NCBI RefSeq assembly: GCF_029167365.1
Contig: NZ_JARFNM010000001.1
Span: 1,356,001 to 1,420,000 of the forward strand
Length of the DNA: 64,000 nucleotides
Reading direction: 5' to 3'
Origin: Amygdalobacter nucleatus
GTDB taxonomy: Bacteria > Bacillota > Clostridia > Saccharofermentanales > Fastidiosipilaceae
Shown here: positions 7,463-14,098 of the stretch, in pieces
Layout: every line of letters starts with the position of its first letter
How positions within the stretch are numbered: position 1 is the first letter of the stretch
Translations under genes and position numbers: made by a program
The notes under the pieces: model-generated
Told to the model about the DNA's origin: nothing
Seen by the model: the letters and a program-made list of their open reading frames with translations, nothing else
Databases searched by the model: none

Positions 7463-8339
7463 TCAAATATTTTCGTCTTCTTTATCTTCTTTCTTTAGTA
7501 AATATCTTGTTTGAATGATTCTATCAGCATACTTAATTTTCATTTTCTCAATATAAGTATTATAAATGACATCTATCAATGCCATCTGACTAATCCTACT
7601 AGATCCGGCACTAATTCTTTTAATACCCTCAATACTTGGGACAAACATTTTATAATCTGCTAGGCTCATAACTTGATTACTATCATATCTCGTAATTGAA
7701 ATCAATTTTGCTCCATTATTTTTAATCATATTAGCCATATTAACTATCTCTTGTGTAATACCCGAATATGAAATCACAAAGGCTAATTCATCCTCTTTAA
7801 TATTCGAAGCACTTATAAGCTGCATATGGATATCTTCGTAAAGAATACAATGTTTATTTATTCTTTCGAGTTTTTGCTGTAAATCTTTGCAAACTAAATA
7901 GCTAGCCCCTATACCATAAAGTCTTATAAGACTTACACTTATCAAGTTCTTCAATTATCTTGCCTAATTTTTCAAAGTCAATCGAATTATAAGTATTTGC
8001 AATAGCATTTACACTTTGGTTTAAAACCTCTTGCGTAGTTTTATGTAAATCATCACCTTCAAAATCTGCAAATTTATTTCTTAAACTTTCTTCGTTGAAC
8101 GTTAACTCGTTTAATATCGCAAGCTTGACATCTCTAAAGCCCTTAAATCCGTTCTTTTTACATATCCTAACTATAGTAGGCGCACTACAATATCCTATTT
8201 TGGCTAAGGTATGTATATCCACAGATGTTACTTTTCTTGGATTTTCTAAAATATATCTTATGAATGGTTTTTCAATATCCGTAGCCTGGTATTTATAATA
8301 GCTTTGCAACCTAAACAATATTTTTTTCACAAGCTTCAC
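7463..8339 (-). pseudogene. RpiR/MurR-family transcriptional regulator, frameshifted
   Basis: The N-terminal part (7902-8339) has the RpiR helix-turn-helix (VTSVDIHTLAKIGYCSAPTIVRICKKNGFKGFRDVK). The C-terminal part (7463-7954) has the SIS sugar-phosphate-binding domain (LYGIGASYLVCKDL; FVISYSGITQEIV). RpiR proteins sense sugar phosphates and control sugar or amino-sugar catabolism genes. The frame breaks near 7915-7930, just where the SIS domain starts, at the 16-bp palindrome AAGTCTTATAAGACTT. The joined protein would have about 280 residues, normal for the family. No sugar gene is adjacent on the same strand, so the target is unknown. Confidence 0.8.
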
Positions 8340-8432: not shown

Positions 8433-8472
8433 AAAAATCGGCACAAAGGCTATTTCTAGCTATCATGCCGAT
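8433..8472 (-). terminator. Terminator of the synthetase operon
   Basis: A 7-bp stem (ATCGGCA / TGCCGAT) with a long loop is followed, on the minus strand, by a U run (gccgattttt). It lies downstream of the gene ending at 8531. Confidence 0.65.
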
Positions 8473-8530: not shown

Positions 8531-9949
8531 TTACTTAACTTGCTTGTTTTTCTTGATTTGGCCATAACGATAGAGAGCAACCATCGCATTGACAGCCTGT
8601 TCAGCTGTTGGATAAGCTGGAATACCATGATCACGCAATTTCATGATTGCACGCTGGCATTCTTCACCGCCCTGGCACTCCATAACAAATGGCTTGTGCA
8701 AATGCTTGAAAGCTTCATGGATTTCAATTACGACATCTGTAACAGCTTCAACATCTGTAACAGCAGTTGGGCAGATTGAACCCAAAATACCGTTGACATT
8801 TGGATCGCGCATAGCTTGACGGAAAGCACCCTTGTAGTGAATTGGTGATGCTGTACCAGAAATATCAACTGGGTTCAAAGGTGAACCGAACATTGGCATA
8901 TAAGCTCTAATGCGCTCAGCCAAACTTGGTGAAATTTCTTTCAATTCATGAAGTGGTAAGCCACAACGCTCAAAATGGTCACAGCTCAACAAACCAGAAC
9001 CACCGCCATTAGTGATCATGACGATCTTGTCATCATACAGAGGTGGCTGCATACCTAAAGCAAGTGATACATCCAAGAATTGCTGCCAAGTAGTAGCACG
9101 AATTGCGCCAGCTTTTTGGAAAATCTCGTCATAATAAGCATCATTTGTGCCTTCATTCTCTGAAGCTGTATGCGCAAATGCAGCCTTAACACCAATCTTA
9201 GAGCCACCGACTTTAATCGTGACAATTGGTTTATCAACCTTTTGACAAGCTTTAACGAAAGCCTCTTCGCTATCCAAGCCTTCAATATAGATAGCTAAGC
9301 ACTTTGTATTATCATCAATACCTGCATAAGCAACAAATTCACTGAAATCAACGTCAGCTTTATTGCCTAAGCCAACGAAGAAGCTCATGCCGAAGTGATC
9401 TTTTTGAGAAGTGCCGAGGGCTGCTAACAAGTTAGCGCCTGATTGGGAAATCATTGCTACAGGTCCCTTAATTGGCAGATAAGGAATAAAGCCACAGTTG
9501 AAATTGAGATATGGGCTACCCATACCAACCAAGTTAGGTCCAATCAAAGGCAACTTATTGTCACGGCAATATTGAGTTAATTCATTCTGCAACTGGCCAC
9601 GGCCAATTTCTTTGAAAGCACTGGTTGCAATAACAACAATCTTGACTTGCTTAGCAACGCAATCTTCCAAAACAGATTTAACGATATGAGCTGGAACGGC
9701 GATGAAAACTAGATCAATTTCAGCTGGAATATCTTTGACTGTCGGATAAGCCTTAAGCCCATGGACTTCATCAGCACGTGGGTTGACTGGATAAATTTCG
9801 CCCTTGTAGCCCCAAGCTCTTAACTCTTCAATTACTTTATAACCAAACTTCGTGTTATAACGGCTAGCACCAACTACTGCAATTGACTTAGGATTCAAAG
9901 CATATTGTAACTTATCGACAACGTAATCACGGACATTAAGAACTTTCAT
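8531..9949 (-). CDS. CoA-binding acyl-CoA synthetase (ADP-forming) alpha-subunit-like protein
   Basis: The 472-residue protein has an N-terminal CoA-binding Rossmann domain (NPKSIAVVGASRYNTKFGY; YPVNPRADEVHGLKAYP), then succinyl-CoA-synthetase-like domains (GPVAMISQSGANL) and a third ligase-CoA domain (MITNGGGSGLL). His260, in KAAFAHTAS, matches the catalytic phospho-histidine of ADP-forming acetyl-CoA synthetases. Those enzymes convert acyl-CoA, ADP and phosphate to acid, CoA and ATP. The ATP-grasp (beta) domain is absent, and no beta-subunit gene is in the window. It is one base downstream of the Lrp-like gene and clearly co-transcribed with it. Confidence 0.85.
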   Translation of the reverse strand: MKVLNVRDYVVDKLQYALNPKSIAVVGASRYNTKFGYKVIEELRAWGYKGEIYPVNPRADEVHGLKAYPTVKDIPAEIDLVFIAVPAHIVKSVLEDCVAKQVKIVVIATSAFKEIGRGQLQNELTQYCRDNKLPLIGPNLVGMGSPYLNFNCGFIPYLPIKGPVAMISQSGANLLAALGTSQKDHFGMSFFVGLGNKADVDFSEFVAYAGIDDNTKCLAIYIEGLDSEEAFVKACQKVDKPIVTIKVGGSKIGVKAAFAHTASENEGTNDAYYDEIFQKAGAIRATTWQQFLDVSLALGMQPPLYDDKIVMITNGGGSGLLSCDHFERCGLPLHELKEISPSLAERIRAYMPMFGSPLNPVDISGTASPIHYKGAFRQAMRDPNVNGILGSICPTAVTDVEAVTDVVIEIHEAFKHLHKPFVMECQGGEECQRAIMKLRDHGIPAYPTAEQAVNAMVALYRYGQIKKNKQVK

Positions 9950-9950
9950 C

Positions 9951-11168
9951 TTATTTCACCTCTTTCTTTCCAGAAAAGCAGCATTTCACATCGTTCACTG
10001 CCGTCCGATCCTGCAGGAAATCATCGGTAAAGACGCACTCTTCCCAGTAACCGTTTTGATCATCTAAGCGGCAAACCCAACGCCGGAACTGTTTAGGTGA
10101 TGTGGAAACTTTGACTTCTTCAATTTCGCCATAGTTTTCAATTTTAGCTCTCAAAGCTTCCCAATCGGTCAACTCATCAAAAGAGCTCAACATAATGTCA
10201 TAGAATGAATCGGTAAATTCCCAAATATTATTAAACTCAGGCATAGCTGACAATTCATCGGTAATTTGTGATTTACGATAGCTTGGAACATTTTGGAACA
10301 TGCGAACTAGATACATCTTCATGTGTAAACCGAGCTTCATGTGATTCAAATAAATCATTGGTACAGCATAACGGCCTACATCACAAATTTTGACGAAATC
10401 TTTCTTCATCTGTTCGCCATCTAAGCCTGAAAGTTGAGCTAAGACATTGTAATCGAACATATCAGCGATGGATTTGGTGTTGTTGATGGCATCAATAATT
10501 GCAAAGTCAACTTTGTCTAATTTGTCTTGCATCTTTAACAGTTTATCAACTTGAGCCTTACCCCAAACGAATTTGCGATAGCCATCACCTGGAGCGTCCC
10601 ACATATTAACATTGGACTCACGCACATCGCGACGAATTGGGCAAAGATGCACATATTCAACTTCCGGACGATCTTTCCATGGTGCAATGACATCTGCCAA
10701 TAAGTTATCCAAAACGCGCATATGATTACCGTTAAAGAAATCAAAATCACCCTCTGTTTCATAACCTGTGCAAATATCATCTTTATTTTGGAACCAGTTG
10801 GATAATTCTTGCTTAAGCTCAGCTGGTGTATTGTCTTTTAGTTTAACTACCCAGTAATAAAGCCCCCAACCATATACTGCTACTGCTGGATTATAAACTA
10901 GCATGATCAAACGCTCGTCATACATTCTCTTCAATCTGGTACGAATTTCAGCCTTGTCTACCTTAATTTTCGAGGCAATGTAATCCAAATTAAATACCTC
11001 TGGATAATTTTGATAAAAAGATTTGGCAATATTATAAGCGCTAAATTCAGCACTATCTGTGGCCACTGTTCCAGGTTCTGTGAACCCAATTCCCCTTGGA
11101 GCAAAGAAATAATTGCGCATCCATTCCTGTTGCTCGCTCGTTCCTAATAGATACTTTTTGTCTTCCAT
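9951..11168 (-). CDS. Lrp/AsnC-like winged-helix protein, operon partner of synthetase
   Basis: The 405-residue protein lacks a signal peptide. A winged-helix-like segment near residues 55-95 reads VFNLDYIASKIKVDKAEIRTRLKRMYDERLI, and is followed by a ligand-domain-like region (AVAVYGWGLYYWVVKLKDNTP). A second, weaker repeat of helix-turn-helix plus ligand domain appears in the C-terminal half (DFAIIDAINNTKSIADMF). This duplicated layout is like that of tandem Lrp/AsnC regulators but much longer than the usual 150 residues. It could regulate the synthetase by sensing a substrate, or be a scaffold; function is not established. Confidence 0.55.
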   Translation of the reverse strand: MEDKKYLLGTSEQQEWMRNYFFAPRGIGFTEPGTVATDSAEFSAYNIAKSFYQNYPEVFNLDYIASKIKVDKAEIRTRLKRMYDERLIMLVYNPAVAVYGWGLYYWVVKLKDNTPAELKQELSNWFQNKDDICTGYETEGDFDFFNGNHMRVLDNLLADVIAPWKDRPEVEYVHLCPIRRDVRESNVNMWDAPGDGYRKFVWGKAQVDKLLKMQDKLDKVDFAIIDAINNTKSIADMFDYNVLAQLSGLDGEQMKKDFVKICDVGRYAVPMIYLNHMKLGLHMKMYLVRMFQNVPSYRKSQITDELSAMPEFNNIWEFTDSFYDIMLSSFDELTDWEALRAKIENYGEIEEVKVSTSPKQFRRWVCRLDDQNGYWEECVFTDDFLQDRTAVNDVKCCFSGKKEVK

Positions 11169-11282
11169 TAGAATTCTCTCCTCTCATTAAAGCAAATGTA
11201 ACAAATTGATAAATTTACCCCTAATATTTATATTATAAATCGCTTCATTTTAAGTCGCAAGCGAAAAGTCACAAAATGAAAT

Positions 11283-11313
11283 AAAAAGGACAACTTTGGT
11301 TAGTTGCCCTTTT
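11283..11313 (-). terminator. Terminator after aminopeptidase gene
   Basis: An imperfect stem (AAAAGG-CAAC / GTTG-CCTTTT) is followed by a U run on the minus strand, 30 bases after the aminopeptidase stop. Confidence 0.65.
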
Positions 11314-11343: not shown

Positions 11344-12807
11344 TTATCGTTCACATGCTGATGAACATGCTTCTTGTTGCTTAGCCAAATTGTAGAATGT
11401 CTTAACTATCGTGCCTGTTGCAAAAATTGGTAGATAACCGCTTGCTTCATGCAAATAAGCTGTCCCAGCAATATCCAAGTGCAACCACGGCATATCTTTG
11501 GCCAAAAATTCACGGACAAACAAGCCTGCTGTAACTGTACCACCTAAGCGCCCAGCTACGTTCTTGATGTCGGCCCGTTTGCTCTTGTTCATGGCTTTGA
11601 AGCGCTCAGAAACTGGCAAACGCCAAATCTTCTCGTCGGCCTTGGAGCTTGCATTTTCCAAATCCTTGTAGAAATCGTCACTATCTGTAACAACGCCTGT
11701 AAACTCTTCGCCCAAAGCTACCAAGCAAGCACCTGTCAAAGTAGCAATATCAACAATCTTAGTTACATTGCAACGGCTTGTGACATAGTAAACAGCGTCA
11801 GCCAATGTTACACGGCCCTCTGCGTCAGTATTGGCAATTTCAATAGTTTTGCCTGCCATGGAGCGAACAATATCACCAGGCTTATAGGAACTACCAGACA
11901 ACATATTCTCGCAAAGTGCTGTTGCAGCTACCACGTTGACCTTGGCTTTACGTTTGGCCAAAGCATAGATAGCGCCGATAACTGTGGCACCGCCTGTCAT
12001 ATCATCAAACATGGTGGACATACCCTCTGTTGATTTGATGGAGTAACCACCAGCATCATAGCAGATGCCTTTACCAACCAAGCCTAAACGCTCATTACTT
12101 GCAGGATTTCCTTCGTAGGTCATAACTAAGAATCTCGGTTCACGATCTGAGCCAGAAGCTACAGCCAAGAAAGCATGCATGCCTAATTGTTCGCAAGCTG
12201 CTTTATCAAAGATCTCAATTTTAACGCCAAGTGGGGCTAATTTTTCTTTTGCAATCTCACATACGCGTTCTGGATACATCACGATAGCTGGCTGATTGGC
12301 TAATTCTTGAGTCAATTCAATGCCTTCCATGACGTCATGCATCTCAGCCAAATTAGCCTCGACACGTTCAAGCTTGTCGCTAGGAACTTGCAAGTTGACA
12401 GTCAATTCAGGATCGACCTCTTTGTCTGTAAAATATTCATCAAAAGCATGGTCAGCCCGCCAGAAGCCTTCTGCAACTGCTTGCGTAATTCTACCTAAGC
12501 AAAGGTGCTTGGGTTTGTCTAACTTTAAGCTAATTTCTGTCAATTTGTGTTGATGGGCGCATTTGCCGATATTGAAAGCCAACAAACGATAATCGTCAAT
12601 TGTAAGTTTCTCAGGTTCGCCAAAGCCTGCTAATAGTTTTTGTTTAGAGCCTGAAAATTCAGGTATAAAGTATGTTTCAGCTAATTTGCCAGAGAAGCAG
12701 CCTCTTGCTTTGAGTTTGGCACATTCTGAACAAGCTTGTACCTGTTCGGTTGATAGTAAGCTAACTTCTAAGCCACCTGTTTGATTTACGTTAAATTTAG
12801 TTTTCAT
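11344..12807 (-). CDS. pepA: Leucyl aminopeptidase, M17 family
   Basis: The 487-residue cytosolic peptidase removes N-terminal residues from peptides using two metal ions. The C-terminal catalytic domain carries the M17 signatures: GKGICYDAGGYSIKSTEGM (metal-binding Lys and Asp; the usual Ser-Gly-Gly is Ala-Gly-Gly here) and NTDAEGRVTLADA, which has the Asp and Glu metal ligands and the catalytic Arg. The N-terminal 150 residues are the less conserved regulatory domain. It is transcribed alone with its own terminator. The start is supported by a nearby GAAAGGAAGA RBS. Confidence 0.93.
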   Translation of the reverse strand: MKTKFNVNQTGGLEVSLLSTEQVQACSECAKLKARGCFSGKLAETYFIPEFSGSKQKLLAGFGEPEKLTIDDYRLLAFNIGKCAHQHKLTEISLKLDKPKHLCLGRITQAVAEGFWRADHAFDEYFTDKEVDPELTVNLQVPSDKLERVEANLAEMHDVMEGIELTQELANQPAIVMYPERVCEIAKEKLAPLGVKIEIFDKAACEQLGMHAFLAVASGSDREPRFLVMTYEGNPASNERLGLVGKGICYDAGGYSIKSTEGMSTMFDDMTGGATVIGAIYALAKRKAKVNVVAATALCENMLSGSSYKPGDIVRSMAGKTIEIANTDAEGRVTLADAVYYVTSRCNVTKIVDIATLTGACLVALGEEFTGVVTDSDDFYKDLENASSKADEKIWRLPVSERFKAMNKSKRADIKNVAGRLGGTVTAGLFVREFLAKDMPWLHLDIAGTAYLHEASGYLPIFATGTIVKTFYNLAKQQEACSSACER

Positions 12808-12939: not shown

Positions 12940-14098
12940 GGTTGTGTCAAGAAAGTTGGTGTAAATTCCTTTCAGTTAATAAGGGAGTGTGTGAATAAAT
13001 CTCTGTAAATAAGATTTCCTGTGATATAATTTCCTGCTTATTAGCCCAGATGCTTGCTATTCCAACTACTTAGCAGTTATTCATTATATAATTCATGTGA
13101 AATTGCATGTCAAGAGCAGGCAGGTGTTTCCTGTCTGCTCTTTTGCTTGGTATTTTCAAGTTATTCAGGTAGCCTATCCTCATACATGAGCGTCAATTCG
13201 CCATAAACTTGGCCCCAGTTTCTAAGTGGCATAGTCCATTTTTTCGTAGCTTCAAAAGTAGATAGATACAAAGCCTTCAATAACGCTTGTGAGCTTGAAA
13301 AAACGCTCCTTTGGCGATTTAATTTGCGATAAGTTGCATTAAGGCTTTCAATTGCTTTCTTCGTATAGATAACCTTACGAACATCAGCTGAAAACTTAAA
13401 GATAGGTGTTATAACATCCCAATCTCTTTCCCAGCGTTTCATGGCATTGGGATATTTAGTCGACCACTTTTCTGTCACATAATCTCGATTTTTGCGCCCC
13501 TGTTCTTCGTTTGTCGCATTGTAGATTGTCTTTAGATCTTTAGAAAATTCTTTTCTGTCCTTATCTGCCACATATTTTAGAGTGTTTCGGTCTTGATGAA
13601 CTATACAACGTTGGTATTCAGTGTTAGGAAAAGCTGTAGATATAGCTTCACGAATGCTGGCCAGTCCGTCAGCACATATGATCATCACGTCTTTTACGCC
13701 CCGATTTTTTAGGCTTTCAAGACCGATAACCAGTACTTTGCACTCTCATTTTCACCAACTTCTATGCTTAAAACATCTTTCTTGCCGTTACAGCCGATGT
13801 CTAAAATGACGTAGGCTGCAAGTTTGCGTATTATTCCGTTTTCTCATACAGAATAGTGAATTGCATCAATAAAAAATACCGGATAAATCTCATCTAATGG
13901 TCGATTTTGCCATTCTTCTATTTGTGGTAGCAGCTTGTCCGTTACGTCAGATATGAAACCTTCTGATACTTCAAATCCATAAATATCCATCAATGTATCT
14001 GAAATTTGCCTTGTTGTCATCCCTTTGGCGTACATTGAGATGATTTTTTGATCAATTTCTGAGATGTCTTTTCTCATAGTTCTTTTTATTATCTTCAA
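12940..14098 (-). mobile_element. Decayed IS256 (Mutator)-family insertion sequence
   Basis: The element keeps a likely terminal repeat near 12940-12970 (ggttgtgtcaagaaagttgg), typical of IS256-type ends. Transposase pieces lie at 13844-14098 (MRKDISEIDQKIISMYAKGMTTRQISDTLMDIYGF) and 13161-13688 (MMIICADGLASIREAISTAFP, the catalytic-core region). Between them the frame shifts and stops occur near 13690-13840, where the reading ENGIIRKLAAYVILDIGCNGK is still recognisable. The N-terminal 80-90 residues and the left end are missing, with unrelated AT-rich island sequence beginning at about 14100. So the IS is dead and truncated at the island border. Confidence 0.85.
13113..13145 (+). terminator. 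Strong hairpin inside the IS remnant
   Basis: A 12-bp stem (AGAGCAGGCAGG / CCTGTCTGCTCT) with a 5-base loop is followed by TTTT on the plus strand. It lies just past the transposase stop, so it may block transcription entering the IS from outside. Confidence 0.5.

Follow-up and report, generated by a model that had tools for sequence, protein, structure and literature searches.

An ACD-type alpha subunit paired with a two-part Lrp-like protein in Amygdalobacter nucleatus: a possible two-subunit enzyme

In Amygdalobacter nucleatus, the gene for a synthetase alpha subunit of the ACD type lies directly behind the gene for a long two-part Lrp-like protein, which we call Lrp2. ACDs are energy-conserving, NDP-forming acyl-CoA synthetases, and alpha is their CoA-handling half. 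We hold it to be possible, at slightly less than an even chance, that the two proteins make up an obligate two-subunit catabolic enzyme in which Lrp2 replaces the ATP-grasp subunit. The pair was found in a 64,000-nucleotide stretch of the forward strand (assembly GCF_029167365.1, contig NZ_JARFNM010000001.1, positions 1,356,001 to 1,420,000), and this whole stretch is what we call the window.

Layout of the gene pair

Both genes are read from the minus strand (Table I), Lrp2 upstream and alpha downstream, with the single base at 9950 between them. This spacing, together with the GAGG run inside the end of Lrp2, suggests that the two are translationally coupled, and the hairpin between pepA and Lrp2 suggests that the pair forms its own transcription unit. 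Promoter-like sites in the region number 11, against 9.4 expected from shuffles, and terminator-like sites number 4, against 2.7 expected. The hairpin listed 3' of alpha was not among the results of the terminator scan, which allowed loops of up to 8 bases.

Table I. Features of the pair and its surroundings, in window coordinates
Feature	Position	Strand	Basis or remark
Lrp2 (405 aa), gene 1 of the pair	9951-11168	minus	ORF, AlphaFold2 model, fold matches, alignment of 20
Alpha (472 aa), gene 2 of the pair	8531-9949	minus	ORF, Pfam, NCBIfam, PDB matches, alignment of 20
Lrp2/alpha junction	9950-9967	minus	Shine-Dalgarno-like GAGG run for alpha within the final Lrp2 codons
Candidate promoter of the pair, TTGCGA-17-TATAAT	11232-11260	minus	Consensus match only
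Terminator-like hairpin between pepA and Lrp2	11284-11313	minus	Consensus match only
pepA	11344-12807		Beyond the hairpin, on the upstream side of Lrp2
Possible terminator 3' of alpha	8433-8472	minus	By eye: 7-base arms, T run, long loop

Two apparently damaged elements lie nearby on the same strand. At 7463-8339, two overlapping ORFs in different frames resemble, to the eye, the HTH domain and the SIS domain of a single RpiR-type regulator, whose gene is probably broken. At 13161-14098, two fragments appear by eye to come from one IS256-type transposase, which points to a disrupted insertion element close to the pair.

Conservation of the pair

Alpha follows Lrp2 directly in 23 of the 23 loci in which the contig continues, namely the window, L002-L019, L021, L022, L034 and L035; L020, whose contig ends within Lrp2, and L036, which is cut by a contig end, stand outside this count. 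A single genome scan had yielded 21 Lrp2 loci, and in 20 of them alpha begins right after Lrp2. The gap was measured at 19 junctions (the window and 18 other loci, leaving out L015, which has Ns, L019, with an early stop in Lrp2, and L034 and L035) and is 0 bases in seven, 1 base in eight, 2 in three, and 4 in one. A Shine-Dalgarno-like G-rich run lies inside the end of Lrp2 in these 18 other loci. This conservation in other genomes, those of distant bacteria included, shows that the pairing is not a matter of chance. The distance matrices of Lrp2 and alpha correlate (r 0.89, 19 pairs), which is expected from shared descent alone.

Overall the pair is rare, a concern that the original prediction had raised. 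Counting the window's own genome each time, Lrp2 matches occur in 8 of 398 genomes of the phylum, one of these a decayed remnant, and in 3 of 391 genomes of the class, and Lrp2 is absent from all 57 other genomes searched in the window's family and order. Where Lrp2 does occur, however, the concern falls away, as the neighborhood search advised by the same prediction makes plain through the 23 loci above. The alpha profile behaves accordingly: across the 398 phylum genomes (with four per genome scored where candidates were many), it reaches 923-991 bits in six genomes, every one an Lrp2 carrier, and the next score is 349 bits, most of the following ones falling in ORFs of about 700 aa. The two Lrp2 genomes outside these six are G443, in which the locus is cut by a contig end, and G390, which holds the remnant. 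That remnant (L030, 1504-1608) is 35 residues long with 63% identity, no alpha match lies near it in 3,111 bases, and G390 seems to have lost the pair.

In the alpha tree, in which the window's own alpha is placed without firm support, families are mixed, and two MAGs, one of Atopobium and one of Bacteroidetes, fall among Clostridia, which probably reflects horizontal transfer or a binning error. No neighbor gene was seen to recur in all loci when we inspected the flanks by eye, going by ORF starts. Two loci carry irregular Lrp2 genes. In L019 (an Anaerovorax MAG), an in-frame stop near 9030 ends Lrp2 about 55 codons early, which reflects a sequence error or a broken gene, and alpha is intact. 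In L035, the Lrp2 match (9493-10839) comes in two pieces about 150 bases apart within one open frame of 481 codons, an insertion or an assembly feature.

The alpha subunit and the search for its beta partner

The CoA_binding_2, Succ_CoA_lig and Ligase_CoA_2 models all exceed their Pfam cut-offs in alpha, and the three ACD domains (CoA_binding, Succ_CoA_lig and Ligase_CoA) stand in the order of an alpha chain. The protein aligns over nearly its full length to the solved ACD alpha chains 4xyl (E 1.6e-85) and 2csu (E 2.1e-76), and in both its H260 and E223 face a His and a Glu. These two residues, the phospho-His and its Glu, are invariant among 20 of 20 aligned alphas, the other 19 of which share 72-87% identity with that of the window. 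The catalytic His that had been predicted is borne out, as is the predicted lack of an ATP-grasp domain. Alpha shares its three domains, loop His, and Glu with the ACD alphas (4xyl, 2csu; TIGR02717), but it falls short of the curated TIGR02717 cut-off (426.8 of 567.15 bits), and its His loop reads AAFAHTASEN in 20 of 20 copies versus AAASHTGS in 4xyl. The pair differs from ACDs further in its Lrp2 partner and in that no ATP-grasp subunit was found. For the swinging-loop function in ACDs, we refer to PMC11494057.

Both the window's genome and those of other carriers were searched for a beta subunit. In known ACD enzymes, the ATP-grasp part relays phosphate between nucleotide and His. In a profile search, neither ATP-grasp_5 nor ATP-grasp_2 had a match in the window's genome (95.5% complete); as positive controls, ATP-grasp_5 had matches in 13 of 14 genomes and ATP-grasp_2 in 11 of 14. 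The only Succ_CoA_lig match in the window's genome is the alpha gene itself. A beta gene elsewhere, which the original prediction had named as telling against it, is therefore rejected for this genome.

The wider sample comprised 24 carriers (the window's genome and 23 others, leaving out the genome of L021). In 17 of the 23, the searches found no long ATP-grasp_5 ORF and no ATP-grasp_2 gene of the SucC type. Some beta-type ATP-grasp gene is present in the other six: three (the genomes of L006, L022 and L027/L034) have ATP-grasp_5 ORFs of 689-817 aa, and three (L018, L028/L035 and L029/L036) have ATP-grasp_2 ORFs of SucC length (395-404 aa). In the genomes of L009 (an 898-aa ORF) and L034 (ORFs of 879 and 306 aa), partial matches reach or barely exceed the ATP-grasp_5 cut-off; judging by ORF length, these, like the matches that stay under the cut-off, are probably other ATP-grasp-like enzymes.

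The Lrp2 protein

No Pfam or NCBIfam model passes its cut-off on the Lrp2 of the window. The AlphaFold2 model (pLDDT 79.7, pTM 0.80) has the order wHTH-RAM-wHTH-RAM, with the wHTH units at about 37-86 and at 218-266, the RAM units at 87-186 and 267-362, and a conserved tail at 363-390. In a Foldseek search with this model, the best solved match is the siroheme decarboxylase NirDL, a loose one (E 3.6e-8, TM 0.42 by query and 0.53 by target, rmsd 11.1), followed by Lrp/AsnC regulators; in VIA, NirDL is again at the top (Z 13.1, rmsd 5.0, 248 residues aligned), followed by ferredoxin-like proteins from Z 12.0 down. Weak HTH_AsnC-type matches appear in 7 of 20 aligned Lrp2 proteins (best E 0.0036) and weak NirdL-like_HTH matches in 2 of 20 (best E 0.0033). 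Judged from the model and these fold matches, Lrp2 is probably an Lrp/AsnC-like single-chain pseudo-dimer, and the prediction of a 405-residue, two-part Lrp-like partner one base from alpha agrees with this.

Conservation among the 20 Lrp2 proteins is uneven along the chain. Its mean is highest in the tail (0.82) and RAM1 (0.77), followed by wHTH1 (0.69), RAM2 (0.65), and wHTH2 (0.64), and invariant residues number 10 of 28 in the tail, 29 of 100 in RAM1, 12 of 50 in wHTH1, 9 of 49 in wHTH2, and 6 of 96 in RAM2. RAM1 and the tail together hold 27 of the 46 invariant polar residues, among them H149, R151, H174, R179, R183, R363 and R367. All 20 copies are acidic, and the mean net charge of the recognition helices is +1.5 in the first and -1.55 in the second. 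When Lrp2 is modeled alone, the tail has a pLDDT of only about 37-51, which we read as the mark of a possible docking segment for a partner or ligand.

We also modeled the L005 pair, which comes from a Clostridium, as one chain, translated through its one intervening stop. This joined model has a pLDDT of 80.0 and a pTM of 0.75, against about 0.5 estimated by hand for randomly placed halves. Relative to Lrp2 alone, pLDDT rises from 65 and 64 to 89 and 83 in the segment 181-200 and from 51 and 42 to 76 and 63 in the segment 361-380, and it is lower in residues 1-40. Residues 656-671 of the joined chain, which bear the phospho-His loop of alpha, stay below 50, as expected for a mobile loop. Because the two models differ in query and alignment, and because the comparison, read from pTM and pLDDT only, had no mismatched control pair, the joined model is no more than suggestive of an association between Lrp2 and alpha.

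Regulators around the pair

Signs of a local regulator are present in 13 of 25 loci and are of three kinds, split by lineage. First, six loci (L009, L010, L019, L034, L035 and L036) have a gene for a GAFTGA-bearing sigma-54 activator upstream of the pair. These activators share 39-78% identity with one another, and those of L009, L010 and L019 were confirmed by Pfam. Candidate -24/-12 sites in the six loci score 17-18 of 19, against at most 14 in 17 other upstream regions, and the mononucleotide shuffles that reach the score number, in 2000, 1 for L009, 20 for L010, 8 for L019, 4 for L034, 41 for L035, and 1 for L036. Second, a divergent TetR-type gene, named by eye, accompanies the pair in L007, L011 and L012 (53-80% identity). 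Third, a cre core occurs without mismatch in L013, L014 and L017 (at most 3 of 500 shuffles) and with one mismatch in L016 (23 of 500). The site scans left out L020, L021 was scanned for cre only, and the cre scan left out L034-L036. No dedicated regulator was found in the other 12 of the 25 loci, the window included.

As far as sequence can tell, then, a local regulator seems to control the pair in those 13 loci, and its kind varies by lineage. Different regulators around a constant pair are as expected of an effector under local control, and such changes fit an enzyme better than a transcription regulator.

Discussion

Our preferred reading, a two-subunit enzyme, draws on the strict pairing, the invariant H260 and E223, the fact that no beta subunit was found, the match of Lrp2 to NirDL, the changing regulators, the acidity of Lrp2, the joined model, and the precedent of AllF described below. 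From these we infer a physical complex, catalysis, and an Lrp2 that does not act on DNA. In such an enzyme, alpha would bind acyl-CoA (or acid and CoA) together with phosphate and would move acyl and phosphoryl groups by way of an acyl-phosphate and phospho-His H260, as NDP-forming acyl-CoA synthetases do. No ATP-grasp subunit would take part as the groups pass among CoA, phosphate, and His. Lrp2, as a pseudo-dimer of the Lrp fold in one chain, would have turned into a ligand-binding or catalytic subunit, much as in siroheme decarboxylase, and would provide the other substrate site or an acceptor site.

Each half of the pair resembles a known system, but because no ATP-grasp part was found and no HxYxR motif is present, we place the pair with neither the ACDs nor the siroheme decarboxylases. 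With the siroheme decarboxylases NirDL and AhbAB, Lrp2 shares two Lrp-like halves, each a wHTH and a RAM unit, and these proteins are a case of an enzyme on the Lrp fold. Their active-site motif HxYxR, as given in PMC4145669, is found in 0 of the 20 aligned Lrp2 proteins, however, and Lrp2 differs from them also in its conserved N-terminal part and tail and in its CoA-type partner. With the Lrp/AsnC (feast/famine) regulators, Lrp2 shares the wHTH and RAM fold but has both halves in one chain, is acidic, and in the window reaches no cut-off of a Pfam or NCBIfam model. A functional precedent is the oxamic transcarbamylase AllFGH of Escherichia coli, in which, according to PMC11326118, AllF and two further subunits together use carbamoyl phosphate. 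The likeness lies in a CoA-ligase-type subunit whose working partners belong to other families: by domain search, E. coli AllF has CoA_binding and Ligase_CoA domains. AllF (FdrA) shows no detectable sequence similarity to alpha and was rejected as its sequence relative; AllG and AllH belong to families that the E. coli proteins match and for which no Lrp2 match was listed.

If the enzyme reading is true, the ACD catalytic module with its His can be combined anew with a partner that handles no nucleotide, and siroheme decarboxylase is not the only case in which the Lrp fold has taken on enzymatic work. The annotation that the two genes probably carry in fermenting and syntrophic anaerobes, acetate-CoA ligase subunit and Lrp regulator, would then need to be corrected. 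Among open-licence papers, we found none that links Lrp/AsnC with ACD, CoA-binding, sigma-54 or pyrophosphatase; the parts alone are covered.

Several observations count against an enzyme. Lrp2 retains two wHTH units, the first with a positively charged recognition helix and with an invariance (12/50) little below that of RAM1 (29/100). The NirDL match is loose, and its Z of 13.1 in VIA stands close to the 12.0 of the next, ferredoxin-like protein. A beta-type ATP-grasp gene does exist in 6 of the 23 other carriers, and 12 of 25 loci lack a dedicated regulator. Finally, PMC4145669 reports DNA binding by a NirL homologue from Heliophilum.

Some of these points favor an acyl-CoA-responsive regulator, in which Lrp2 would bind DNA by its wHTH units and alpha would sense acyl-CoA or its own phosphorylation state. 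Besides the DNA binding of the NirL homologue, such a role would suit the wHTH and RAM fold that the Lrp2 model has in common with Lrp/AsnC regulators, the charge of the first recognition helix, and the lack of constant metabolic neighbors in flanks read by eye. Moreover, ACD-like parts occur also in protein acetyltransferases (9isq and 9it0 are among the PDB matches of alpha), where they are regarded as metabolite sensors. Against this, the pair itself seems to be under regulators that differ by lineage (13 of 25 loci); Lrp2 is acidic in every copy, with a second recognition helix of negative charge; the invariant share of RAM1 and the tail exceeds that of both wHTH units, though RAM2 has just 6 of 96; and H260 and E223 are kept in all 20 alphas. 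We consider a regulator unlikely, if still worth weighing. Where the original prediction had left the choice between an acyl-CoA sensor and a bipartite acyl-CoA enzyme, the evidence leans toward the latter, and the sensor is the weaker of its two proposals.

A nucleotide-free, PPi-linked synthetase is a more specific idea. Here the phospho-His would exchange phosphate with Pi/PPi at a site on Lrp2 (acyl-CoA + 2 Pi <-> acid + CoA + PPi), and a membrane pyrophosphatase would tie PPi to an ion gradient. Anaerobes could then couple acyl-CoA cleavage to PPi and, with H_PPase, to the gradient. The conserved His and the lack of an ATP-grasp part would suit this scheme, and in L009, L010 and L019 the first long ORF past the pair on its strand is an H_PPase gene, about 240, 400 and 650 bases downstream. 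The scores of these three (597, 607 and 955 bits) are of two types, which suggests more than one origin for the association. The co-location is known from gene positions, however, not from one transcript, and in L019 a 119-residue minus-strand ORF intervenes. H_PPase has matches in 16 of 24 carriers, and the 8 in which it has none include the window's genome; a pyrophosphatase link is therefore optional at most, and we reject it as obligatory and keep it as a hint only. We know of no PPi site in an Lrp fold. Taken together, this scheme seems distinctly improbable. The genomes of L009 and L010 (G065 and G066) have two H_PPase genes apiece, and each of these genes belongs to the type with the lower scores (597-611 bits).

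It is very improbable that alpha is an ordinary ACD alpha served by a beta subunit encoded at another site and that Lrp2 regulates it locally. The three carriers with a long ATP-grasp_5 ORF and the three with a SucC-type gene could offer such a beta, but the window's genome and 17 of the 23 other carriers have none that we found, the long ATP-grasp_5 ORFs are, from their length, big enough to contain an alpha part of their own, and alpha misses the TIGR02717 cut-off. That Lrp2 is a relative of the siroheme/tetrapyrrole decarboxylases acting on such a substrate, with alpha an unrelated neighbor, is hardly credible, because despite the top fold match to NirDL and the two weak NirdL-like_HTH matches, HxYxR is missing in 20 of 20 Lrp2 proteins and the two genes were never seen apart in testable loci. 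As to the role of the pair, a general replacement of phosphotransacetylase is rejected, since PTA_PTB occurs in 20 of 24 carriers, one of which is the window's genome.
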